From Apostichopus japonicus (Eukaryota; Echinodermata; Holothuroidea; Aspidochirotida; Stichopodidae): a stretch of 64,000 nucleotides of DNA. The notes beneath the pieces were generated by a model. It was not told the DNA's origin and searched no databases. It saw only the letters and a list, made by a program, of their open reading frames with translations. The stretch lies in assembly GCF_037975245.1 (NCBI RefSeq), contig NC_092577.1:25355398-25419397 (forward strand), read 5' to 3'. Position 1 is the first letter of the stretch. Every line of letters starts with the position of its first letter. The position numbers and the translations under genes are program-made. Of the stretch, positions 1-14,375 are shown one piece after another.

Positions 1-2257
1 TCTAAAAAGGTCGGCCTCAAGCGACGACTCAGACGACGATATGTCGTCTAGAGCTCGCTTGAAGCTTACAGAATCGTCATCGGCGTAGTTTTGCCTCATT
101 GCCCTCTCATGGCCCATACATTTTCAGTTGCCACTTTCAACGTCAATGGCATGAGGGATCATCGCAAGCGCAGTCGCATTTTCCAATATTGTATTTCAAT
201 GGAGGTCGACTGCGTTTGCCTGCAAGAAACACATATTTTGGAAGAAGATGTCCCTCTATGGGCTTACGAGTGGGGTGGTGGGCTGCATGCTTCGTTTGGT
301 TCGTCTTCATCCTGTGGCACTGTCATCCTTCTGTCACCTCGTCAGGCGGGTTGTGCCACTAGGGTGGAGACGGATCACGAGGGCCGATTGGTTTGCATTC
401 TGTTCAAGTATCCACAGGGTAACATCTCCCTTTGCAATGTGTATGCTCCCAATCGGCCTTCTGCTAGACGAGAATTTTTTAACACGCTACCTTCCTCTGT
501 TCCTGGTAGTGCACCATGTGTCATGGTCGGAGACTAACTGTGTCCCAGACTCGGGTCTTGTGTGTCTGCTAGTCCTGACGCTGGGATCACAGAGCTGGAC
601 AGATTCACTTCGGCACACCTTTTAGCCGATGTCTGGAGGCATGTGCACCCGTGTAGTACGGCGTATACGTGGGTGAGGCCGAACGGAGAAGATGCCTCCA
701 GGATAGATCGAGTGTATGCGCCCTGTAAGTTTGACATTTTCGGGTTGCGAGACGCTCAGCTGTCCGCTCTGTGACCATGACACTGTAGTAACACGTTTTG
801 TTTTGCCTTCCATTTTCCCGATCGGGCGGGGCCTATGGAAGCTTAACTGTCGGATTCTTGGCGAGGCAGAGTTCCGCCAAGGTTTCGAGACCAGGTACAA
901 AGGATGGCAAACATTGAAGCCGGCCTTTGCCTGTACATCCCAATGGTGGGATGATGTCAAGTTGCGCATGAAACGCTTCGCAATTCAGTATTGCGTGACC
1001 CGCACACGGCGTCGAAGAGAAATTTTCCAAGCTGTGCGCGGAGGTGAAGTTTGGCGACCCTTCGGCTGTCATCGCTTTGCAGACATATCTCGATGAAAAG
1101 TACCACGGTGCCCGCGTCAGGGCCCGTGCCGAAGCGGTCGAAGCCGAGGAGCGCCCATCACTGAGGTTTTACCAGTTCGTAAGCTCATCGGCGGGTGACA
1201 GACGCGTTCCATCTGTGCGCGCTACTGATGGGACCGTGGTTAGTGACTCTCACGGCATTGTCCGCGTATACAAGGATTATTATTTGAGTTTGTTTACGCG
1301 TGGCAATGTCGACTTGTCGGCACAGGCCGATTTATTGAGGGGAATCTCAAAAACCGTTCCCCACGATGTCAATGATATTTTTTGGGGGGGGGGGGCGGAA
1401 TAACCACTGTTGAGCTTTGGAGGGCGCTTTCGAAGATGAACAATGGCAAGTCTCCGGGTTCGGACGGGCTTCCGAGGAAGTTCTACCGAACCTTCTGGGC
1501 AATAATAGGACCCGACATCAGAGCCGTCTTCGAGGACGCCTTCCAAAACGGACTGTTAAACCAAAGTCAACGTCTGGGCATGATTACTTTGCTGCCAAAG
1601 TCTGGGGACCCCATAACAAGCGTCCGATCACCTTGTTAAATGTGGACTACAAGTTGCTGGCTTAGGCTTTGTGCAACCGCCTTGCACTGGCTATGTCGCA
1701 TCTTGTTGGTTATCTCCAGACTTGTGCAGTGAAGGGTCATTGCATCCAGCAGAACTTGTCGTTGATGCGCGACTTGACCGACTTTGTTATTGAGCGTGAT
1801 CTGTGCATTGGTGTCTCTGGACCAGCAGAAGGCTTTTTGACATGGTGGATCGCGGTTTTTTAATGAATGTATTGGAGACGTTTCAGGTGCACCCGGTTTT
1901 TCGTAAATGGATTTCTGTTTTGTATCAGGAAAGTTTCAGTTCTGTTATCGTAAATGGGTTTTGTTCGGAGGTTTTTAACGTAGAGAGGGGGGTGCGTCAG
2001 GGGTGCCCTCTGTCTCCATTACTTTATGTTTTGTTTAGCGAGTCCCTCTCTCGTCTTTTGGAAAGGGACTCCAAACTTGTTCCATTCGTTGTGCCAGGGG
2101 GTGCCAAAGTGAAATGCGTTCAATATGCAGATGACGTAACGTGTGTTGTTTCGAGTCTGGGCTCCTTTCGTGCCCTTTCGCAGGATTTATCTATCTTTGA
2201 GAGAGCTACCGGGGCGAAGTTGAATCCGGAAAAGACAATGGGCCTTCGCCTTGGTAG
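1..2257 (+). mobile_element. Tx1-like LINE copy A, segment 1 (ORF1 tail and most of ORF2)
   Basis: Non-LTR retrotransposon of the Tx1/L1 group, family 1. Bases 2-88 encode the acidic, Ser-rich end of ORF1, stopping at TAG 86-88. ORF2 begins at ATG 109, 20 bases later. It shows apurinic-type endonuclease motifs (FNVNG, LQETH, NVYAPNRPS) and reverse transcriptase blocks (GKSPGSDGLP, RQGCPLSPLL, QYADD). Compared with the open copy B it is broken at least seven times: a short deletion after the GD of the GDFN motif near 535, shifts near 730, 1030, 1390 (a T-run/G-run expanded to thirteen Gs) and 1610, a stop near 1663, and a shift near 1810. It stops abruptly at 2257 inside a codon run that resumes at 8731, so the copy was cut by an insertion rather than truncated. 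Its 5' end lies outside the window. Confidence 0.9.
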
Positions 2258-2644
2258 CATAATGAAAACTTTCAGTTGTAATTTCGCATAAGATACAGCA
2301 TCCGGAAGAAACCAAAATGCTGTCACATAATCGGCTAGTTTTGGACTATTTAGTTGGGCTAATCCATTTTTATACATAGGAGATAATGAAAAACCATAGG
2401 CAAATTTTGAACTTCAATCTGTAATTTTTAATTCAATTCTCGAATCAAACAATGTAATAATACAGAAACATTAACGTTATATCACAAATCATTGTAAATA
2501 TAGGCAAAAAATAATTGTTGTAGGCCCTACTTCGTAATATCAGCGTCAGTAGACAGTAGCCGTATGTTAGGCTAGTACTAGTATACTAACGTTAGGCTAC
2601 AGCATCGCCACATGAAAACCTCACCATACATACTATATAACGTT

Positions 2645-3286
2645 AGGCTTGAGCTGTATACAACGTACATCATTATACCAACGTTACTGTATGACTATGA
2701 GTTACGCGATTATATGATCAATTTGTGTGAGCAGAAGAACCTCTTACTTAATCCAAAGAAATCTAAAGAAATAATTTTTGAAAACATCAACATTAAACAT
2801 CAAGGTCTCATTCAGACCAGGGATCAGAACACTTATGTTCAAGGCTCCATTGTTGAGCGGGTATCTCATACTATGTACTTAGGAGTTTGATATTGACGCC
2901 AAGTTACACCTTTACTAAATATAGCCTATATCTAAATCGATGTCTAAGGTGTATTACATTGTATCGACGTTGGCATACATTACTCCTTATTTTCATTTAA
3001 TGTAAGAGATAAGGTTTTCAGCTCATCAATTCTGCCAGTGATTGTGTATGCAGTTCCTGTCTGGTATCACTTTCTACTTGAAAAGGACAACAAAAGAATA
3101 AGAAGTTTCTTGAAATACTGCTCAAAAATATTTAATCTCGACTATGAAAGCCTTGTTGGTAAAGTAAACACTGCTGCTAAAAATGAATTCATAAGACTAG
3201 CTAAGAATATACATAGTTCTAAAGATCACCAATACCGATTCGCCTTAAGCTCAAGTCGCCCACTGCCCAATTTGCCCCACCTATAG
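2645..3286 (+). pseudogene. LINE reverse transcriptase C-terminal fragment (CR1/Jockey-like)
   Basis: Two sense frames resemble the end of a LINE reverse transcriptase. The first has NLLLNPKKSKEIIF followed by TMYLGV, which matches the thumb-proximal 'NPKKSKEI...YLGV' segment. The second (3038-3286) has VIVYAVPVWYHFLLEKDNK followed by IRSFLKYCSKI, typical of the region after the polymerase domain. The frames are separated by about 150 bases with stops. There are no endonuclease and no YADD motif, so this is a 5'-truncated relic. It is different from the Tx1-like families elsewhere in the window and appears to have been carried in, or to have landed in, the 6.47-kb element. Exact ends are not visible. 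Confidence 0.55.
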
Positions 3287-3476
3287 GGCCTACAACGATG
3301 AATGAATTATTAATAGACAAACGAGACATATAGGCACAGTGTAGCGTGTATTTTTTACAGATAGTAGTAGGCTAGTCCTATGGGTAACATTGGCGAATAC
3401 AGAAGGGGAGGATATATAGGTGGTGAGTTATAGAGGTTGGGGCGAATTGACTCGCATTCGTAAATATGTACTACAA

Positions 3477-5617
3477 CTAGTCCAAATTCTTTCCACAAGT
3501 TCTCTTGTTGTGACCCTTTCTTTTACAGATACTGCACTGAGTTGTCCAATTTTTCTTTCGTGTGCACCTATCAGCTAGCAAGTGTAATCTATACTGTTTG
3601 CTCATTATTTGTTGCATTGCCTTACATCCAAAATTTGTGGAACGATGGTACCATTTTGTAACAAGATCATTTAACTTTTCTAGACCCTGCTGACAGAAAT
3701 GGGAAATATTTCCATGAAGTTTCATAACCTCTGGCACATGGTATGCTAATACATGCATGTAGGGTGTTACGTCAGTGCTACAATTTGCACGATAACACAA
3801 ATCAACCCATTTCTTAGCAGATTTCTGAAAATTTGCAACTTGTAGTTCTGACAGGTGTTGGTCCATTTCAGCCAATAACAATGGGAAATCCCTCAAGTAT
3901 TTTTAATTCTACAAGTTTTGGATGTGCAGGTATTAATGTATCCAAATCTATTTTCTCCATTAATTTCCTGTGCTCAGGACCACGGAACGCTCGGTATTCC
4001 AATTTCCCATCTTTTCCCAATGAAGAATTTCCAATCATAGATACCAACCACATCATGAATAAAAACCTGAAACCTATGGATGTGTTTGGCATTTGACAAT
4101 TTCTTCATTGTCATGGAACATTTCTCAATATTATCCATCCTTCGCAAATATGAGATAATATGCCCAACAAGCTGATCACCGATGCGCAAGCATAGATGCA
4201 GTGTATCTGGAATGACTTTATGAATCGGTACAGATTGAAAAACTGGTTCTTCGATACAGTTGTATTTCATTTGATCATTTGCTCGTTTATGTGAGCATTG
4301 GATTATCCCTTCAATGGTTCTTGCACCTTCTTTGGTATCAGTCATTGACCATGACTTGCTCATATCAAATCTGTCATCCCTTCTACAATGACACCATAAG
4401 CATGAAAAGTTACTGGCAAAACCAGCAATACCAAGAATCTGATTTAAATACTTTAGATCACCACCCAAGTATTTATCAATCTTGATTTCTTTTCCATTAA
4501 TAGTAACACATGATAATGTATCAAATTCCTGAATGAGGTCGTGAATAGCAGACTTTAAAGACACGTTATCTTCCTTGCACTTTGCTATTGCGAGAAGGTA
4601 GTTACCATGCTCTGACATACTTGTAGCTTCATCTACTAATGTATATGAAAGATTTACAAACTGTTGCTTACAAGTAATTCTTGTTCCATCACCGCTGAGC
4701 TTAATACGGACTACTCCGTCCTTTATCAAGTTTGCTCTTTTGGGCTCAGATAGCTTCAGAATCAGTGAGTTGGTCAAAGAGGTATACACACCTGGGCAGT
4801 CACCACTGATTTCTTTTATTTCAATGCCAGAGTTGAGGCTGTGGCGCCTCTTAATAACTTTACCAGCAGCGGGCATAATGGAGGACATGGATTGAGCAAG
4901 CTCGTGATATCCTCTATTAGGGATATTGTATTGATCAAGAATAAATACAATTCTATCAATATCATCATCTGCATCATTTTTAGGGATTTCATTACCTGAA
5001 TCAAGGCATATGACGACTTCCTCGTCAAATTCATCCCTAAATTTGACAGAGATAGGTTTCCAACCTTCAGTTGGAGTATCCAACATTACTAACTGAACAA
5101 CTTTGTGTTTGGCCCTGCCACGTTCACCAAGTTTCTTCTTAGTTGGATTAGTCAGCCTATCAATCTTTCTCTTAAGCTCATTATTTGAACCTTGGGCCTG
5201 ATCTAGTTGTTGTTGCATGTGAGTAACAGTTGACTGTGTAGCAGACAACTCTTCCTGAATAATATTAACCTGTTGTTTTGTTGGTGACCCGGTGCAATGT
5301 GGTATACTTAAATTGTAATCAGTGTGTTTCCATTTCTTGAATAAAGCGTCTCTCCTAAATCCAGACCGTGACACATTTCTTAACTGACGATGCATATATT
5401 TCAACTTTGAAGCTAACGTCTTTAGCCCCTGACGTGTATCAACATGGGCTACATTAATATGATGCCTAGATAAAATCTGTTGCAGTGCAATTTCAATGTG
5501 TTTTGGGTGAAGTGAATCTGTATGTTTAGATGTTAGGTTAAACAAGTACAAATTATTCAATGAAAGGAATACAACGTGTGGATACAACTTTATATTGGAT
5601 TGATCAGTTTCAGACAT
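3477..5617 (-). pseudogene. DDE transposase-like protein (RAG1/Transib- or CACTA-like), near full length
   Basis: A long frame runs from ATG 5617 to 3974 and continues in two other frames to 3477, about 700 residues in all. Candidate catalytic residues: Asp in LSGDGTRIT (codon near 4690), Asp in VIPDTLHLCLRI (near 4207) and Glu in QQGLEKLND (near 3680). Between the first two lies CLWC, a C(2)C motif; PDTLH is a D(2)H motif. Both are signatures used for RAG1/Transib and CACTA-type transposases. The stretch YMHVLAYHVPEV just before the Glu resembles the RAG1 segment before its catalytic Glu. A coiled-coil-like region lies at residues 120-160. The C-terminus holds a zinc knuckle, CSICKRKGHNKRTC. 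Two frame changes, near 4020 and 3895, break it. The family is common but unnamed in invertebrates; the DDE assignment is my inference. Confidence 0.65.
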
Positions 5618-5907
5618 ACTGTAATACAAAGATGGAATACCCTACATGCCAATAATGTTGATATATAGCCTACTGAGCTTACATTACAAAGCTAAGTAGC
5701 ATTATTAATTGTTCCAAGCGTCCCCACGGCTTACTCGTTCATGTCAGGTAATCCATACAGTTCAGTACATGCATAGTATTGTAGGCATGCTGTATGCAGA
5801 TACAGGTAGATTTGGTTCACGACTGTATGCAAGCCAATATTGTAACAAATAATATACAACTTGAAAGTGAAAAATAATATACATTCACTATCTATCGGTC
5901 CATCTGA

Positions 5908-6776
5908 TCACCCCCTTGTCAAATCAATTTCGGTCCAGAAAACTGGCTTCAGCGAGTCCGTTCCCACGACCTCTAGTCTTGCAAACAGAAATACAAGGTT
6001 AAATCCACGATGTTTGTACGAGGGGCTCTCGTCTGCATGAAACTCTACCAATGAACGTGTTCCTGACAAACGATAACAGACAGTGTCATCAACAATTTCA
6101 GATTGTGAAACTGACAAGAGCGAGTCCGTTCCCACGATCTCTTACAAACTTGAATACTAGGAAAAATCCACGATGTTTGTAGGTCGGGTTCCCTTCTGCA
6201 TCAAACTCTACCAATGGACTTCTTTCTGACAAACGATAACGGACAGTGCCATCAACAATGAACGCGAAATCCTTATTTTTATTTACAACCCTAAAGTGCC
6301 AATTGTTTCCAAGAAGTTCATTCAAATCTGACAGTTTCGAAATGTAATACCAGCCTTGCGATTTGGAGCGTCCACATCTTTTGATGAGGTCAAACGACTC
6401 TTTCTGCATTGGCAGCCGAATCTCCACCAAACTGTCCGTTTTCCGTTGAATGTGGAGATTCTCCTTTACAGCGGTAGCTAGCTGTAAGTAGAACAGTGAT
6501 GTCCCTTCTGGATTAGTAAAGATGTATTGATCTGGAATTGTTAATACGTCTCCCAACGGTTGCCATTCATTGTATTTCTTATCCCAATCGATATAATGTA
6601 CAAACACTTGTGGTACACCATTAACTTATAGCTTCATCCACTATATTAATTGGGAAAAATGTTGAGGCTGACCAACAAATGTGTTTGGTTTTCTCACCAC
6701 TATTAATTTTTGGTCCTTCTGATAAAGCCTTGTAGTCCACTGTGGTTGTGGTACGCCTACTTCGGTATGCCGCCAT
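5908..6776 (-). pseudogene. Chromo-barrel-like protein, likely N-terminal partner of the transposase
   Basis: ATG at 6776 opens MAAYRSRRTTTTVDYKALSE; a one-base shift near 6618 leads into VFVHYIDWDKKYNEWQPL, which has the spacing of aromatic residues of a chromo-barrel (MRG/MOF-type) fold. The frame continues to 6098 with a basic segment (LIKRCGRSKSQGWYY) of unknown fold. About 50 codons containing VEFDAEGNPTYKHRG are repeated at 5908-6080 as VEFHADESPSYKHRG, so this end has been tandemly duplicated and diverged. The gene lies directly upstream of the transposase-like frame in the same direction, 290 bases away. In related invertebrate proteins I would expect both parts in one product, so they may be exons of one gene. 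Confidence 0.5.
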
Positions 6777-6954
6777 CATCCAAGATCATAGAAAACTGTA
6801 ATTTGAAAATCAAATTGTTTAGTATATAGGCTCTCAAGGAAAAATTTAAATTGCCCCAACCCCATTTCTAACACCGGACAGTGATAACGGCACTTGTCTA
6901 TTGAATAACTCACCCTTACGCAACACTCAGTAGGCCTACCGTAAACTGATATTG

Positions 6955-7175
6955 AGAAATAATTGTTGCAACATTGCTTATTTAACCAGTCGTCTGGTAA
7001 ATTAGAGTCACAGTTAACCTTGCTTATATAACCGATCGTCGAGTAAATTAACATTGCAAAATTGCTTATTTACCCGATCGTTGGTTAAATTATCGTTGTA
7101 ACATTGCTTATTAACCGAATGTTTGGGTAAATTAGCGTTGCAACATTACATTGCATATTTAACATATCGTCATGG
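6955..7175. repeat. Diverged tandem array, about 45-55 bp unit, four to five copies
   Basis: The phrase 'AACATTGCTTATTTAACC...GTCGTCTGGTAAATTAG' recurs from about 6965 to 7170 with changes (GTTGCAACATTGC, GATCGTCGAGTAAATTA, GATCGTTGGTTAAATTA, GTTTGGGTAAATTAGCG). Units are about 45-55 bp. The array sits about 180 bases upstream of the chromo-barrel start codon on the minus strand, where subterminal repeats or a promoter of the element would be expected. Confidence 0.6.
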
Positions 7176-8717
7176 CTAATTGATTGTTAATTTATCTATG
7201 ACGTAGAGAAATCCACTACCGATCGGAATGTTGGTAGGAACTCTCATAGACCAAATGCACATGAAAACCGAAAGATTTTTTAACCACTATTAGTTCGAAA
7301 TTCAAACAAGGGTTACTGGGTTAGCCATGGGGCCTTGAGTAGCTACCTTACGAGTGCCCACTAGCTACAGTAGCTAATCACTAGCTAACAAATACCTGGC
7401 ATTTCCTTACGTCATCATGATTGGGTAAAGAAACAAGGACAACGATCCGTTAAATAGTCACAATTCATATTATTTGACAGACTGAAAAAGAGTGACCCTG
7501 GTGACTGACGAGTGACACTCATGTGGGATATTTGTGGGTCACTTTGTCGACTCACCATGACAGATCAGTGAGGGGGGGGGGGTCATGACTTGTGAGCATC
7601 ATGGGCATATCCAGACCAGAGATGGGACTCACTCCCCCTGTCTCTTCCTGTGTATTTGGCTCACTGATTCAAGTTCAAGCAAATTACCAGAGACTGAAAG
7701 ACCCGCCAGAATCGAACCTGTTCTCAAACAAAGTCAAAATACCCGGAACCCCCTTGCTAAAACTGTTTGCAATTAGTATTTAATAAAATGGAATTATAAT
7801 TCTATTTGTACAGTTTCAAATAGACGTTTAAACGCTAGGTAGTACTAATAGTATGTAGTCCTATTACATTATTTACCATTTGCATGTTACATTCTAACCA
7901 GTACTATAAAGTATTATAGGCGTAAGGCTAACGTTTGCACAGTGTAGCTGGCTAGAACTAACGTTATGCTATGACTAGGCTATAGCCTACATGATTCAAT
8001 ACAATGTAAACCGTTCATTCCTGTACCAAAATGGTACTGTCCATCACTGGGTCCACGAGGATGACGTCCAAAAATGAGTGTTCTTTAGCTTTCTAAGTCC
8101 CAAATAACTCGAAAATACCTCGAAAATAGTAATGGTCAATGTTGTCTGCTTGTCTTAGGAAGCAAACTTCAGGCAATTAGTTGATTTTAGATTTAAACAG
8201 CGATACCGATCTTACCTTAATTCTGTCGATTTACGCACAGTCAGGTTTGACCTATTTTGACCTCAAATCACGGAACTTTTTCATTGAGGTAAAAATGATC
8301 ATTGGGCTTTCAACCAATCAGATCAATGATTTGGTATATGATAGATGAATAATTCATGTGTTTAAATCCGTTTACCCCGTATTGATAGGCTGTATCATTT
8401 TGTAGTGGTGTGCTTTTAAATTTAGCCAAAGGTTATAAAATCGATGTAAAGTAGAGACATGTTGTATTTTCACATAGATAATAGCAACACATTTCCGAAT
8501 ATATTTGTAAAATGATCACTCAGCTTACATTAAATTGATTCAATTTTAGGGCAATACTTAAAAGAAGATATTTAATATGTATAATTCATTCACCCCGCAA
8601 CTTGATAAAACGACCCACAACATTCATTCATCGTTTGCTACATAGAGAGGTGCTATTGCGTTCTACGTCACACGTATTATAAGGTCCACATTATTGAAGC
8701 CAGGCAGATGATAGCTG
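7176..8717. other. Non-coding right part of the 6.47-kb element
   Basis: No frame here has protein-like composition. It contains a run of ten Gs at 7571-7580, several GTGAC/GTCAC words around 7490-7560, and many short 'TAGGCTA' words near 7915-7990, a word common across the window. The last 12 bases of the element, at 8718-8729, mirror its first 12. Confidence 0.4.
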
Positions 8718-8730
8718 GTTTTCATTATGA

Positions 8731-9743
8731 TGGAGATACAGAGACTTACCATTCGGTGCGTCGTGGTCGGATCAGAATATCAACATTAATGGTATATGGT
8801 TCGGCTACGATGCACCTTGTGACGTCACCTGGAACGAGAGGGCTGAGGTATTCGAGAGCAGGCTCGAAGCCTTCGGCACCCGCTGGCTTTCGATCCTAGG
8901 GAAAGTCACCGTAATTAATCGTTTTGTTTCGTCCATGTTGTGGTACCCGCGCGCGGTGTATCCAATTCCGCGTCGCGTGCTGGTGCGGTTGGAGAGAGCG
9001 ATATTTTCATTTATTTGGTCGGGTGGTACAGAACTTGTGAAAAGGGCGGTAATGTACCAAAAACTGGAGAAGGTGGGTTAGGGGTGGTTCATCTGGGAAG
9101 TAAATTGACCTTTTTGTTATTTAAGCAGTTGTTTGTAGCGGTAACTGACCCAGGGTTGCCTTGTTCATATTTTCTACGTTTTTGGGGCGGTTTGCACCTG
9201 CGTCGATGGGTCCCGGCGCTGTTTAGCAACAGAGAACCGCATAGTAGTACTCCAAACAGGGTGGTGCGTGTCATCTGTTCCGCTCTGATTGAGTTGCCCC
9301 CTGTTGACCTGTCACAGCCGGCCCTCGTTGACAGTTCGTTGCGGGATAAGGCCTTGAATGCAACTTTTGTCCAGGGACGTCATTCTGCCGAAGTATGGCG
9401 TTCGGTGCATTCAAGGCTGAAGGGTTGCAGGCTCCGTGATCTCGCATGGAGAGTTGCACACGGTGCCTTGGTGACCAACCTAAAAAGATATCATTGGCGA
9501 CTGGGTGATGGACTGTGCCCTAGGACCGGCTGTGACAGCTTTAGAGAGTACTGCTCATGTTTTTTGGCATTGTTGCTTTGTAGTAAACTTATGGGAGTGG
9601 TTCCAGACCTGGACCGACCGTGTTACGGGAGGCGAGTTTTTTTTTTATGCAGGTAGGTTCACAATGGTACGAACCTACCTGCATAAAAAAAACTCGCGTG
9701 CGGGCCGCCCTTTTGTAGTTTCTGTGGGGGGGGGGGTGGGTGT
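8731..9743 (+). mobile_element. Tx1-like LINE copy A, segment 2 (C-terminal ORF2)
   Basis: Resumes copy A exactly where segment 1 stopped. It encodes the post-RT part of ORF2: FGTRWLSILGKVTVINRF in copy B corresponds to the first 200 bases here, then WRVAHGALVTNLKRYHWRL and the zinc segment with CPRTGCDS. Frame changes occur at several points, for example near 9070 and 9545. From 9632 the LINE is replaced by a 66-bp hairpin, and about 330 bp of the consensus is missing before CGTGCGGGCCGCC resumes at 9696. The segment ends in an 11-G run and TGGGTGT, which is the left copy of the target duplication made by LINE B. Confidence 0.85.
9632..9697. repeat. Hairpin (27-29 bp arms, 10-base loop) at a LINE deletion junction
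   Basis: Left arm 9632-9660 (GCGAG, ten Ts, ATGCAGGTAGGTTC), loop ACAATGGTAC, right arm 9671-9697 (GAACCTACCTGCAT, eight As, CTCGC). The arms match except for the homopolymer length. It replaces about 330 bp of LINE A, so it looks like a repair or template-switch scar, or a small foldback insertion. Confidence 0.8.
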
Positions 9744-9903: not shown

Positions 9904-12900
9904 TCAAAAACGTACAGAAGGACGACCCGCACGCAGCGAAACGAAAAACCCCTCCCCGGCACACCAGCGTCCAAAAAAGGCAGCCCCAGATAAACGGCGA
10001 AAATCGCCTTCAATCTGAAGGCGAATGTCAGACTTCACCGCCTCCAGGAGTGCCTGCCAACTGGCAAATTTCCCCCTAAAAACCAAATTACATCTATTCC
10101 GCCAAACATGTTTTTTTACAATAGAGCAAACAAAAAGAATGCGGTGCAACACAGCTACCGAACAAACTGGAGGGTCTACCCCATATAAAATAAAGCCCTG
10201 CCCTACCGACCATGAACGGTCTCCCGTAACACGGTCGGTCCAGGTCTGGAACCACTCCCATAAGTTTACTACAAAGTAACAATGCCAAAAAACATGAGCA
10301 GTACTCTCTAAGCTGTCACAGCCGGTCCTAGGGCACAGTCCATCACCCAATCGCCAATGATATCTTTTTAGGTTGGTCACCAAGGCACCGTGTGCAACTC
10401 TCCATGCAAGATCACGGAGCCTGCAACCATTCAGCCTTGAATGCACCGAACGCCATACTTCGGCAGAATGACGTCCCTGGACAAAAGTTGCATTCAAGGC
10501 CTTATCCCTCAACGAATTGTGAACGAGGGCCGGCTGTGACAGGTCAACAGGGGGCAACTCAATCAGAGCGGAGCAGATGACACGCACCACCCTGTTTGGA
10601 GTAATACTATGCGGTTCTCTGTTGCTAAACAGCGCCGGGACCCATCGACGCAGGTGCAAACCGCCCCAAAAACGTACAAAATATGAACAAGGCAACCCTG
10701 GGTCAGTTACCGCTACAAACAACTGCTTAAATAACAAAAAGGTCAATTTACTTCCCAGATGAACCACCCCTAGTCCCCCCTTCTCCAGTTTTTGGTACAA
10801 TACCGCCCTCTTGACAAGCTCTGTACCACCAGACCATATGAATGAAAAAATCGCCCTCTCCAACCGCACCAGGACGCGACGCGGAATAGGGTACACCGCG
10901 CCCGGGTACCACAAGATGGGCGAAACGAAACGATTAATAACAGTGACTTTCCCCAAGATCGAAAGCCAGCGGGTGCCAAAGGTTTCGAGTCTGCTCTGAA
11001 ATACCTCAGCCCTCTCGTTCCAGGTGACATCACAAGGTGCATCGTAGCCGAACCATATACCATTAATTTTGATATTCTGATCCGACCACGACGCACCGAA
11101 TGGTAAGTCTCTGTATCTCCAGCTACCAAGACGAAGGCCCTTTGTCTTTTCCGGATTCAACTTCGCCCCGGTAGCTCTCTCAAAAATAGATAGATCCTGC
11201 GAGAGTGCGCGAAAGGAGCCGAGACTCGAAACAATACATGTCACGTCATCTGCATATTGAGCGCATTTCACTTTGGCACCCCCTGGCACAACGAATGGAA
11301 CAAGTTTGGAGTCCCTTTCCAAAAGACGAGAGAGGGACTCGCTAAACAAAACATAAAGTAATGGAGACAGAGGGCACCCCTGGCGCACCCCCCTCTCTAC
11401 GTTAAAAACCTCCGAACAAAACCCATTTACGATAACAGAACTGAAACTTTGTTCATACAAAACAGAAATCCATTTACGAAAAACCGGGTGCAACTGAAAC
11501 GTCTCCAATACATTCATTAAAAAACCGCGATCCACCATGTCAAAGGCCTTCTGCTGGTCCAGAGACACCAATGCACATGGCAGATCACGCTCAATAACAT
11601 AGTCGGTCAAGTCGCGCATCAACCACAAGTTCTGCTGGATGCAATGACCCTTCACTGCACAAGTCTGGAGATCACCAACAAGATGCGGCATAGCCAGTGC
11701 AAGGCGGTTGCACAACGCCTTAGCCAGCAACTTGTAGTCCACATTTAACAAGGTGATCGGACGCTTGTTATGGGGATCCAAGGGGTCCCCAGACTTTGGC
11801 AGCAAAGTAATCATGACCAGACGTTGACTTTGGTTTAACAGTCCGTTTTGGAAGGCGTCTTCGAAGACGGCTCTGATGTCGGGTCCTATTATTGCCCAGA
11901 AGGTTCGGTAGAACTCCCTCGGAAGCCCGTCCGAACCCGGGGACTTGCCATTCTTCATCTTCGAAAGCGCCTTCCAAAGCTCAACAGTGGTTATTCTGCC
12001 CCCCAAAATATCATTGACATCGTGGGGAACGGTTTTTGAGATTCCCCTCAATAAATCAGACTGTGCCGACAAGTCGACATTGCCACGCGTAAACAAACTC
12101 GAGTAATACTCTTTATATACGCGGACAATGCCGTGAGGGTCACTGACCACGGTCCCATCGGTAGCGCGCACAGACGGGACGCGTCTGTCACCCGCCGATG
12201 AGCTAACGGACTGGTAAAACCTCAGTGAAGGGCGCTCCTCGGCTTCCACCGCTTCGACACGGGCCCTGACGCGGGCACCGTGGTACTTTTCATCGAGATA
12301 CGTCTGCAAAGCGATGACTGCCGAAGGGTCGCCAAACTTCACCTCCGCGCACAGCTTCGAGAATTTTTCTCTTCGACGCCGTGCGCGGGTCACGCAATAC
12401 TGAATTGCGTAGCGTTTCATGCGCAACTTGATATTATCCCACCACTGGGATGTAGAAGCAAAGGCCGGCTTCAATGTTTGCCATCCTTTGTACCTGGTCT
12501 CGAAACCCTGGCGGAATTCTGCCTCGCCAAGAATCCGACAGTTAAGCTTCCATAGGCCCCGCCCGATCGGGAAAATGGAAGGCAAAGTAAAACGTGCTAC
12601 CACAGTATCATGGTCAGAGAGCGGACAGCTGAGCGTCTCGCAACCCGAAAATTTAAAACTCATGGGCGCATACACCCGATCTATCCTGGAGGCATCTTCT
12701 CCGTTAGGCCTCACCCACGTATACCCCGTACTACACGGGTGCATATGCCTCCATACATCGGCCAAAAGGTGTGCCGAAGTAAATCTGTCCAGCTCTGTGA
12801 TTCCAGCGTCAGGACTAGCAGACACAGAAGTTCCGAATCTGTCAAGACCCGAGTCTGGGACACAGTTAAAGTCTCCGACCATGACACACGGCGCACTACC

Positions 12901-13296
12901 AGGAACAAAGGAAGGCAGCGTGTTAAAGAAATCTCGTCTAGCAGAAGGCCGATTGGGAGCATACACATTGCAAATGGCGATGTTACCCTGTGGATACTTG
13001 AATAGAATGCAAACCAATCGGCCCTCGTGATCCGTCTCCACCCTAGTGGCACAACCCGCCTGACGAGCTGACAGAAGGATGACAGTGCCACAGGATGAAG
13101 ACGAACCAAACGAAGCATGCAGCTCGCCACCCCACTCATAAGCCCATAGAGGGACATCTTCTTCCAAAATATGTGTTTCTTGCAGGCAAACGCAGTCGAC
13201 CTCCATTGATTTACAATATTGGAAAATGCGACTGCGCTTGCGATGATCCCTCATGCCATTGACGTTGAAAGTGGCAACTGAAAGTGTATGGGCCAT
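9904..13296 (-). CDS. LINE B ORF2: endonuclease-reverse transcriptase, intact
   Basis: 1130 codons from ATG 13296 (MAHTLSVATFNVNG); the frame is open a few codons upstream, but this is the first ATG, 19 bases after the ORF1 stop. Residues 1-235 form an apurinic/apyrimidinic-type endonuclease (FNVNG, LQETH near 39, MVGDFNCV near 141, SRIDRVY near 203, SDHD near 228), which nicks target DNA. Reverse transcriptase spans roughly 440-760: GKSPGSDGLP, SLDQQKAFDMVD with Asp 580, GVRQGCPLSPLL, and QYADD with the catalytic pair near 683. The C-terminus has a CCHC-type zinc segment, CPRTGC...HVFWHC, near 988-1006. Motif order and spacing are those of Tx1/L1-group LINEs. No internal stop is present, so it could encode a working enzyme; whether it does is unknown. 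Its partner ORF1 is broken. Confidence 0.9.
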   Translation of the reverse strand: MAHTLSVATFNVNGMRDHRKRSRIFQYCKSMEVDCVCLQETHILEEDVPLWAYEWGGELHASFGSSSSCGTVILLSARQAGCATRVETDHEGRLVCILFKYPQGNIAICNVYAPNRPSARRDFFNTLPSFVPGSAPCVMVGDFNCVPDSGLDRFGTSVSASPDAGITELDRFTSAHLLADVWRHMHPCSTGYTWVRPNGEDASRIDRVYAPMSFKFSGCETLSCPLSDHDTVVARFTLPSIFPIGRGLWKLNCRILGEAEFRQGFETRYKGWQTLKPAFASTSQWWDNIKLRMKRYAIQYCVTRARRRREKFSKLCAEVKFGDPSAVIALQTYLDEKYHGARVRARVEAVEAEERPSLRFYQSVSSSAGDRRVPSVRATDGTVVSDPHGIVRVYKEYYSSLFTRGNVDLSAQSDLLRGISKTVPHDVNDILGGRITTVELWKALSKMKNGKSPGSDGLPREFYRTFWAIIGPDIRAVFEDAFQNGLLNQSQRLVMITLLPKSGDPLDPHNKRPITLLNVDYKLLAKALCNRLALAMPHLVGDLQTCAVKGHCIQQNLWLMRDLTDYVIERDLPCALVSLDQQKAFDMVDRGFLMNVLETFQLHPVFRKWISVLYEQSFSSVIVNGFCSEVFNVERGVRQGCPLSPLLYVLFSESLSRLLERDSKLVPFVVPGGAKVKCAQYADDVTCIVSSLGSFRALSQDLSIFERATGAKLNPEKTKGLRLGSWRYRDLPFGASWSDQNIKINGIWFGYDAPCDVTWNERAEVFQSRLETFGTRWLSILGKVTVINRFVSPILWYPGAVYPIPRRVLVRLERAIFSFIWSGGTELVKRAVLYQKLEKGGLGVVHLGSKLTFLLFKQLFVAVTDPGLPCSYFVRFWGGLHLRRWVPALFSNREPHSITPNRVVRVICSALIELPPVDLSQPALVHNSLRDKALNATFVQGRHSAEVWRSVHSRLNGCRLRDLAWRVAHGALVTNLKRYHWRLGDGLCPRTGCDSLESTAHVFWHCYFVVNLWEWFQTWTDRVTGDRSWSVGQGFILYGVDPPVCSVAVLHRILFVCSIVKKHVWRNRCNLVFRGKFASWQALLEAVKSDIRLQIEGDFRRLSGAAFFGRWCAGEGFFVSLRAGRPSVRF

Positions 13297-13315
13297 GAGA
13301 GGGCAGTGGGGCAAA

Positions 13316-14375
13316 CTACGAAGACGACGATTCCGTAAGCTTCAATCGCGCCCTAGACGACATATCGTCGTCCGAGTCGTCACTTGAAGCCGACCTTTTA
13401 AGAGAGGGTTCCCCCATTTCATCGTACCAGCTCGTCCCAGTGGCACGTTTCGGCTCGCTGATCACCGATTCACCGGAGTCGCTGTCAGACAGAGCCTCCG
13501 GAGGATCGATGACCACCGATTCTCCGTCAGACAAAGCCTCCGGATCTGGCGATACCGGCTGGGGACTGGGGACGGAACTGGACGAGTTGATGGGGGAAGC
13601 TGGTGGAGACTTTCTCGGTGCGGGCACGGGGTTGGGGTCTGCAACGACGGGGGTGGGTGAACCAGGTGCAGGGGAGGGTAAAATCCCACCAGATTCCCCC
13701 TCCTCTCGTGAAGTAGTAGGTGCGTCGGAACTTGACTTACCCCCACTCTTAGTCCTAGAGACATAAGAGGAGGGACAAGCTCGAAAGACATGTCCCTCCT
13801 TCCCACATAGTGAGCACACAACCTCGTTTGGGCAAGCGGTGCTATCATGCCCAAGACGAAGGCAGCGCCCACATTTCTTGTTTGGGCAGCCCTTGGCTTC
13901 GTGCCCGGTCTCCCCACACCTGAAGCAGGTACGGGGCTGACCGGGATACCGCACGTGGGCTTTATGCCCTGCTATAAACAGGAAGGAGGGAATGTCCTGT
14001 TTCAGGTCGATCCGAACCTGTCGGTGCCCGTTCAACACCCCAGGGGCTTGTGCATAGGAGCACATTTTGGCAGCCTTGACAGCCCCAAACCGACCCAAAG
14101 CCGTTACGACAAGTTCCTGCCGCACCTCTAGTCCTACGTGGATGATAGTTACCCATACGGATCGCTCGTATGGAGTAACTGTCATCCCCTCGACGTTACT
14201 CAGCAACGTGACACCTTTCTGACGGGCCACGTCACTGGTAAGCTTGCAAAGCATCAACCTCCCCAGGCACAACAACACCCTTGCTCTTCAAAATACTAAA
14301 AACTTGCACCGGTGGAACCGCTTGTTCACCGGTGAACGACAACTTAACAATCCGAGAATCACGGCGCGATGCCAT
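13316..14375 (-). pseudogene. LINE B ORF1: CCHC zinc-knuckle RNA-binding protein, frame broken once
   Basis: ATG at 14375 opens MASRRDSRIVKLSFTGEQAV and runs 48 codons to PGEVDALQAYQ, then TGA. The rest continues in another frame from about 14262: TSDVARQKGVTLLSN, a basic/aromatic domain, three zinc knuckles (CFRCGETGHEAKGC, CGRCLRLGHDSTAC, CSLCGKEGHVFRAC) and a Pro/Ser/Asp-rich tail ending TESSSS-TAG at 13316. Compared with the equivalent protein of family 2 (copy G), about a dozen codons are missing at the join, so a deletion caused the shift. ORF1 of Tx1-type LINEs binds the element RNA in a ribonucleoprotein particle. Confidence 0.8.

Follow-up and report, generated by a model that had tools for sequence, protein, structure and literature searches.

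What is the 6.5-kb unit that splits a long interspersed nuclear element (LINE) in the genome of the holothurian Apostichopus japonicus, and what do its two genes encode? The stretch analysed, called the window here, comprises 64,000 nucleotides of contig NC_092577.1 (positions 25,355,398 to 25,419,397, RefSeq assembly GCF_037975245.1), and the unit occupies 2258-8729 of it. The original prediction, made from the letters alone, regarded it as a transposon with a chromatin-reader-like protein and a RAG1/Transib-like DDE protein. Our analysis indicates that it is very probably a DNA transposon of the cut-and-paste type from the RAG1/Transib/Chapaev (CMCT) group, now dead, carrying two open reading frames (ORFs), namely the chromo-barrel-like ORF1 and the transposase-like ORF2. 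The borders and ends, another insertion sharing those ends, element-free sites, the motif order of ORF2 and the recurrent pairing of both ORFs were observed directly. The genome searched consisted of 671 Mb in 35 contigs; positions outside the window are given as contig:position, and single copies by handles such as C16a.

Borders, ends and a second insertion

The borders of the element are fixed to within one base, because the filled site was compared with two LINE copies in the window that lack the insertion. The halves of the host LINE were 93.3% (left, 1-2257) and 95.5% (right, 8730-9631) identical to the copy at 10221-13403 (minus strand). The second copy, at 57329-54583 (minus strand), was 90.8% identical to the left half and, over the first 245 bases, 92.7% identical to the right half. 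Both uninterrupted copies read GGTAG-C-TGGAG (GGTAGCTGGAG) at the empty site, whereas the filled site reads GGTAG, CATAATGAAAAC...GTTTTCATTATG, ATGGAG, with 6472 bp between the LINE halves. The exact borders (2257/8730) that had been predicted from the split LINE were thus confirmed to that precision. The predicted 12-bp inverted terminus, CATAATGAAAAC, also held up: it matched perfectly at both break points and at both ends of the second copy, and no repeat extended beyond 12 bp. The 12-mer was not rare alone, occurring 160+135 times in the genome compared with 98+81 times for the reversed pattern; therefore, its weight lies in its position, since it occupies both break points of the LINE and both termini of the second copy.

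The second insertion (copy 2) was located with the element ends on C17 (16.28-16.32 Mb), with the left end at 16319368 and the right end at 16282133. Its outermost bases were the same 12-mer on both sides, and its flanks were unlike those in the window. The termini of both copies were CAT/ATG, not CAC/GTG. Furthermore, the flanks of copy 2 were found 13 bp apart and without the element at C12:21088318-21088644, and a second, less conserved unoccupied relative of the site was present at C17:19026050-19026399. These adjoining, element-free flanks mark copy 2 as an independent insertion. A genome search for copies with the same ends and an empty site, which had been proposed as a check, therefore returned such a copy and unoccupied relatives of its site. 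Over the long ORF2 frame, the window element and copy 2 differed at 34 of 1663 sites (8, 14 and 12 at the three codon positions), a spread that appears as expected for decay without constraint. In addition, a 49-bp relic of the right end only, whose edge reads CGTAATG, was found at C17:24793886. Copy 2 itself was interrupted by an insert of ~30.5 kb (C17:16282534-16313026, between loci L037 and L039). The two parts of the element overlap there by 7 bp (window 8328-8334), which resembles the target duplication of a large insertion.

The transposase-like ORF2 and its relatives

As shown in Table 1, ORF2 lies on the minus strand in two pieces. The original prediction had a single protein at 3477-5617 with the order D...CLWC...PDTLH...E. 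The CLWC and PDTLH motifs, the Glu stretch and the CCHC knuckle are indeed present, but the protein is not a single open frame, being divided into 555 and 141 codons by frame breaks. The motifs GGDLKYL, CLWC, HVLAYH and QQGLEKLND follow the RAG1 order, with the catalytic Asp residues assigned putatively. In the alignment with the core of mouse RAG1, ORF2 and RAG1 coincided in the CxxC and Glu regions, and the ORF2 Asp before CxxC fell on TGYDEKL. For this reason PDTLH probably does not hold a catalytic Asp; the order proposed earlier stands, except that the second Asp would be that of GGDLKYL, before CLWC. The first Asp is the weakest link, as the aligner did not put the first motif of RAG1 on SGDGT.

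At least 14 loci (at least 24 matches) of ORF2 were found in the genome, in at least five groups: window/copy 2, C3/C17b, C16a, C16b/C16c and C10/C11/C15. In the relative at C3:26781906, ORF2 was intact as a single frame of 741 codons. The order in the readable copies was GDGT, D-xK (mostly GGD, VTD in C16a), CxxC, D-x-LH, HxxxxH, QQGxEKxND and Cx2Cx3GHx4C, with LN for LH in C17b and QQDMEKIND in C4. The Cx2Cx3GHx4C knuckle was also present in C3, C17b and C16a, and had DH for GH in C16b and C10. The C10, C11 and C15 copies were broken near the Glu. In three subfamilies, the start of ORF2 showed a stretch that may be hydrophobic, signal-peptide-like coding sequence or the pyrimidine tract of an intron (L042:3573-5795, L045:5483-6616, L017:1396-1977).

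The similarity of the ORF2 family to RAG1 appears weak but specific, and lies mostly in the Glu region. With E up to 10 allowed, the Pfam RAG1 model (PF12940) matched five of the 15 fragments of the family, the best being C16c (19.1 bits, E=4e-4); for C16a, E was 0.021. Among the 10 PDB chains matched by the ORF2 family profile at E up to 10, seven were RAG1 (E 0.04-0.33). Moreover, mouse RAG1 scored 14.2 bits against the family (p ~6e-7), compared with 1.6 bits for reversed RAG1 and a maximum of 5.9 bits among the 3,032 scored of 4,000 shuffles. In hhalign, mouse RAG1 and the family profile aligned in the GGD-CxxC region alone (E=1.7e-4, probability 49.7). For scale, a search with mouse RAG1 matched chain 6pqn_A, which we take to be the solved Transib transposase, at E=0.0031. 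The DUF1280 model (PF06918) matched 1 of the 15 fragments, C16b, across the first-Asp region (E=1.8e-5; 24.9 bits, with the cut-off at 25.0), and gave no match in the scanned C16c and C10 pieces. DUF1280 is the Chapaev transposase, grouped with RAG1 in clade II (PMC3985635). The proposed profile comparison with RAG1 and the CMC transposases thus found similarity to RAG1 and DUF1280, but below the formal cut-offs. The genome gave no match to the RAG1 or RAG2 family, which says nothing on absence, because the control genomes were empty as well. For RAG2, no match was seen in five other ORFs of 96-112 codons, and the genome search with PF03089 was empty, likewise in the controls.

The ends of the relatives were sought as well. 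C17b resembled C3 over ~26781266 to 26784434 (C3 coordinates); no inverted repeat was visible. C16b and C16c had a common edge at TATGTGCACTGAAAGC, and no partner end was found in C16b. The gene pairs of C10, C11, C15 and C2 lay inside a repeated unit of more than 10 kb whose ends were not reached. When four loci were scanned for inverted repeats, many pairs appeared by chance; a few had 2-3 bp of matching flanks, and none was judged credible. The blocks C11:5634300-5642767 and C11:8860050-8868516, 3.2 Mb apart, were 99.97% identical wherever compared, flanks included (L063/L064, L015/L016, L030/L031), and may represent a very recent duplication or an assembly artefact. This pair is useless for borders because the flanks were duplicated along with the element.

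The chromo-barrel-like ORF1 and its linkage to ORF2

ORF1 consists of a chromo-barrel followed by a conserved module of ~130 residues. The reader-like module that had been predicted directly upstream of the transposase is real (ORF1, 6098-6625), although its first part is out of frame and its 3' part is tandemly duplicated in the window. The Pfam Tudor-knot model (PF11717, cut-off 20.8 bits) was passed by the ORF1 at C16:26386410 (22.8 bits); the scores of the window (12.8 bits, E=0.11), C3 (13.0 bits, E=0.098) and C16a (16.2 bits, E=0.0097) were below the cut-off. When the PDB was searched with the C3 ORF1, the best five of 30 chains at E up to 10 (E 0.027-0.14) were At1g02740, MYST acetyltransferase 1, ARID4A (twice) and MORF4L1, all of which we take to be chromo-barrel proteins.

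A total of 23 ORF1 matches were obtained at 15 loci. Of the 14 ORF2 loci, 12 had ORF1 upstream in the same orientation. Since both C11 loci belong to a single duplicated block, this corresponds to 11 of 13 independent loci. Such a chromo-barrel partner is uncommon. No pairing of a chromo-barrel or chromodomain with a transposase or transposon was found in the open-licence literature, covered mostly as titles and beginnings of abstracts and without Repbase, which possibly names the family. At C2:7.262-7.272 Mb (L059 with L068 and L072), ORF1 and the flanks were kept together with a piece of the ORF2 start, and ~1.85 kb including the DDE core was lost, as in a non-autonomous derivative.

Known systems and alternative readings

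According to PMC12730594, members of the CMCT group possess C(2)C and H(3-4)H motifs, mostly CA..TG ends and duplications of 2-5 bp. Both the motifs and the CA..TG ends were found in the window element. The ends of RAGL and Transib are described as invariably CAC (PMC7204232), and those of Chapaev as invariably CAC/GTG (PMC4079192). Since its ends are CAT, not CAC, the window element is most likely neither a canonical RAGL/Transib nor a Chapaev element. It shares with RAG1 and RAGL (ProtoRAG, TransibSU) the order D, D, CxxC, HxxxxH, E, a second protein encoded next to the transposase, and the C-terminal Cx2Cx3GHx4C knuckle of the CTT* pattern (PMC7204232). RAGL elements, however, have CAC ends, mostly 5-bp duplications and a convergent RAG2L gene (PMC7204232), while the window element has CAT ends, no 5-bp duplication and a head-to-tail chromo-barrel ORF. 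A 5-bp duplication was absent at the window copy, and the flanks of copy 2 (TCGGG and GGGGG) differed. Transib has a RAG1-type core and CA..TG ends in common with the window element, but it encodes a transposase only and has CAC ends and 5-bp duplications (PMC7204232). Accordingly, of the original RAG1/Transib-like label, the RAG1-type DDE transposon was supported; the CAT ends, the missing 5-bp duplication and the misassigned Asp speak against the rest.

The element might be a divergent member of Chapaev/Chapaev3 whose CAT ends are a small drift from CAC. The two share a RAG1-clade DDE core, CMC-type motifs and CA..TG ends, and differ in that Chapaev carries a Chapa zinc domain and the window family a separate chromo-barrel ORF. 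C16b nearly reaches the DUF1280 model, and copy 2 is compatible with a GGG duplication, Chapaev duplications being 3-4 bp. We nevertheless hold this unlikely. Both copies end in CAT/ATG against the invariable CAC/GTG of Chapaev, and the window copy has no 3-4 bp duplication. Furthermore, none of the 14 family loci was matched in the whole-genome DUF1280 search (E<=0.001), which pointed to three places elsewhere, two on C20 and one on C2. A Chapaev-like fragment of this genome, L075 (C20:16522860-16523036, 37.6 bits with DUF1280), failed to match the ORF2 family profile and apparently belongs to a family separate from that of the window element. A position nearer to EnSpm/CACTA, Mirage, Plavaka, ESTA or Lanisha would also suit the C(2)C and H(3-4)H motifs and the mostly CA..TG ends of those groups (PMC12730594). 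This is improbable, as RAG1 and DUF1280 were the sole recognised transposase models among the best 25 of 35 Pfam families, where Transposase_21 (EnSpm) and DUF1258 (Mirage) did not appear; ESTA, Plavaka and Lanisha were compared by description. That ORF1 and ORF2 are host genes or unrelated debris between chance inverted repeats is hardly credible. The window copy is broken and holds pieces of other repeats, but two insertions with the same ends, element-free sites and the recurrence of the gene pair in several subfamilies argue for a transposon.

Another alternative concerns the genes themselves: ORF1 and ORF2 could be exons of a single protein, with the chromo-barrel as the N-terminal domain of the transposase. 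The ORFs are on the same strand and overlap (C16a) or lie 22 bp (C3) to ~460 bp (window) apart, a pyrimidine-rich stretch that might be an intron end precedes the conserved ORF2 start in three subfamilies, and the ORF1 of C16d has no stop in the stretch shown. This arrangement is a serious possibility, yet we do not favour it. In ten copies (C3, window, copy 2, C17b, C16a, C16b, C16c, C11, C10, C2), ORF1 has its own stop ~12-24 codons from a conserved FVK-like motif, and these similar places of the stop favour two proteins. Moreover, no common splice donor or acceptor was evident, and an in-frame ATG of ORF2 was present in C3 and C16a.

Several results weigh against a two-gene transposon of the RAG1/Transib/Chapaev group. 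No target-site duplication was visible in the window copy when the filled and empty LINE sites were compared; the simplest readings are no duplication with one base change, or a 2-bp duplication damaged later. Copy 2 was inserted in a C run, so that its duplication is undecidable, one of up to 3 bp being indistinguishable from none. About 67 bp beside its right end had no counterpart at C12, and therefore that empty site is not base-exact. As for the termini of other copies, the nearest one carries the 12-mer, but CATAATGAAAAC was not found at eight scanned loci of distant subfamilies, the ends of which are undefined. None of the 15 family fragments passed the Pfam RAG1 cut-off of 25 bits. The top PDB match of the family profile was 9lni, on the coiled coil, and nearly all of the mouse RAG1 score came from the Glu region (11.5 bits, compared with 0.6 for CxxC). 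AlphaFold gave an unusable model for window 3977-5641 as a single sequence (mean pLDDT, its per-residue confidence score, 30.9). In addition, ORF1 was missing at 2 of the 14 ORF2 loci (C9, C16:3.64M), and 3 of the 15 ORF1 loci had no ORF2 match (C16:26.386M, C16:26.584M, C2:7.267M). The first of these three, C16:26386410, is the sole locus that passed the Tudor-knot cut-off, and the 1.4 kb read beyond it contained no match to ORF2.

As a two-gene transposon, the element would encode on its minus strand, head to tail, ORF1 with its chromo-barrel and ~130-residue module and then ORF2. The latter would be the transposase, of ~740 residues in the best-kept relative, with a coiled coil, a DDE RNase H-like core (CxxC, HxxxxH) and a C-terminal knuckle. 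It would bind the short CATAATGAAAAC ends, probably partly via the Cx2Cx3GHx4C knuckle, excise the element by D-D-E chemistry like RAG1 and reinsert it at another site. Target choice or local chromatin might be steered by the chromo-barrel protein, which would probably be a methyl-lysine reader. The RNase H-like fold, catalysis, DNA binding and reader role are predictions from sequence comparison.

RAG1-RAG2 is thought to descend from a transposon in which both genes were present (PMC7204232). RAG2 binds H3K4me3 through its PHD finger, although amphioxus ProtoRAG is described as having no PHD finger (PMC8355894). If our reading is true, the pairing of a transposase with a chromatin reader would recall RAG1 and its partner RAG2, and the different type of reader would provide a case for comparison when asking why enzymes of this kind gain readers. 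It would also widen the range of known ends and partners in the RAG1 clade and tie proteins of the ORF1/ORF2 type to a defined element. Tentatively, the family could be a RAG1-clade lineage that is new and has ends other than CAC, in which a transposase and a dedicated chromo-barrel reader form a second, independent RAG1-RAG2 plan, with several divergent subfamilies in one genome.

Table 1. Features of the element and its host locus, by position in the window; RAG1 residue numbers are those that we take to be equivalent
Feature	Position	Strand	Basis or remark
Whole element, 6472 bp, LINE insertion	2258..8729	none	LINE copies without insertion align up to both points; same terminal bases in copy 2
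Left terminal inverted repeat, CATAATGAAAAC	2258..2269	+	Sequence at left LINE break
Right terminal inverted repeat, reverse complement of CATAATGAAAAC	8718..8729	-	Sequence at right LINE break
Transposase N-terminal region (555 codons) with coiled coil and start of DDE core, followed by a frame break	3977..5641	-	Open frame and family comparison
SGDGT, putative first catalytic Asp (RAG1 D600)	4682..4696	-	Equivalent site inside the C16b DUF1280 match
GGDLKYL, putative second catalytic Asp (RAG1 D708)	4445..4465	-	Alignment to RAG1
CLWC, ZnC2-type CxxC	4391..4402	-	Alignment to RAG1
Conserved PDTLH; counterpart of RAG1 DALH in the alignment, which places the catalytic Asp elsewhere	4196..4210	-	Alignment to RAG1
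Transposase C-terminal part, other frame, 141 codons (HxxxxH, Glu, zinc knuckle)	3480..3902	-	Pfam RAG1, E=0.011-0.013
HVLAYH, ZnH2-type HxxxxH	3738..3755	-	Alignment to RAG1
QQGLEKLND, putative catalytic Glu (RAG1 E962)	3666..3692	-	Alignment to RAG1
CSICKRKGHNKRTC, Cx2Cx3GHx4C zinc knuckle	3495..3536	-	Same motif defines CTT* of RAG1L (PMC7204232)
ORF1, chromo-barrel-like, barrel segment 6563-6607, first part out of frame	6098..6625	-	Relative at C16:26386410 passes Tudor-knot cut-off
Tandem duplication of ORF1 3' part, ~157 bp, units 5940-6096 and 6108-6259, 81% alike	5940..6259	-	Also in copy 2
Host LINE, left part	1..2257	+	Alignment to uninterrupted LINE copies
Host LINE, right part	8730..9631	+	Alignment to uninterrupted LINE copies
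Neighbouring LINE without insertion, empty-site reference	9904..13403	-	Open frame 9904-13341
Two degraded ORFs, by eye like a LINE reverse-transcriptase tail	2582..3286	+	Also in copy 2, there broken by ~357 bp near 3230

For the LINE-like appearance of the two degraded ORFs at 2582-3286, no Pfam support was obtained. At 9632-9697, the tails of the interrupted LINE and of the LINE at 9904-13403 face each other across a short inverted repeat.

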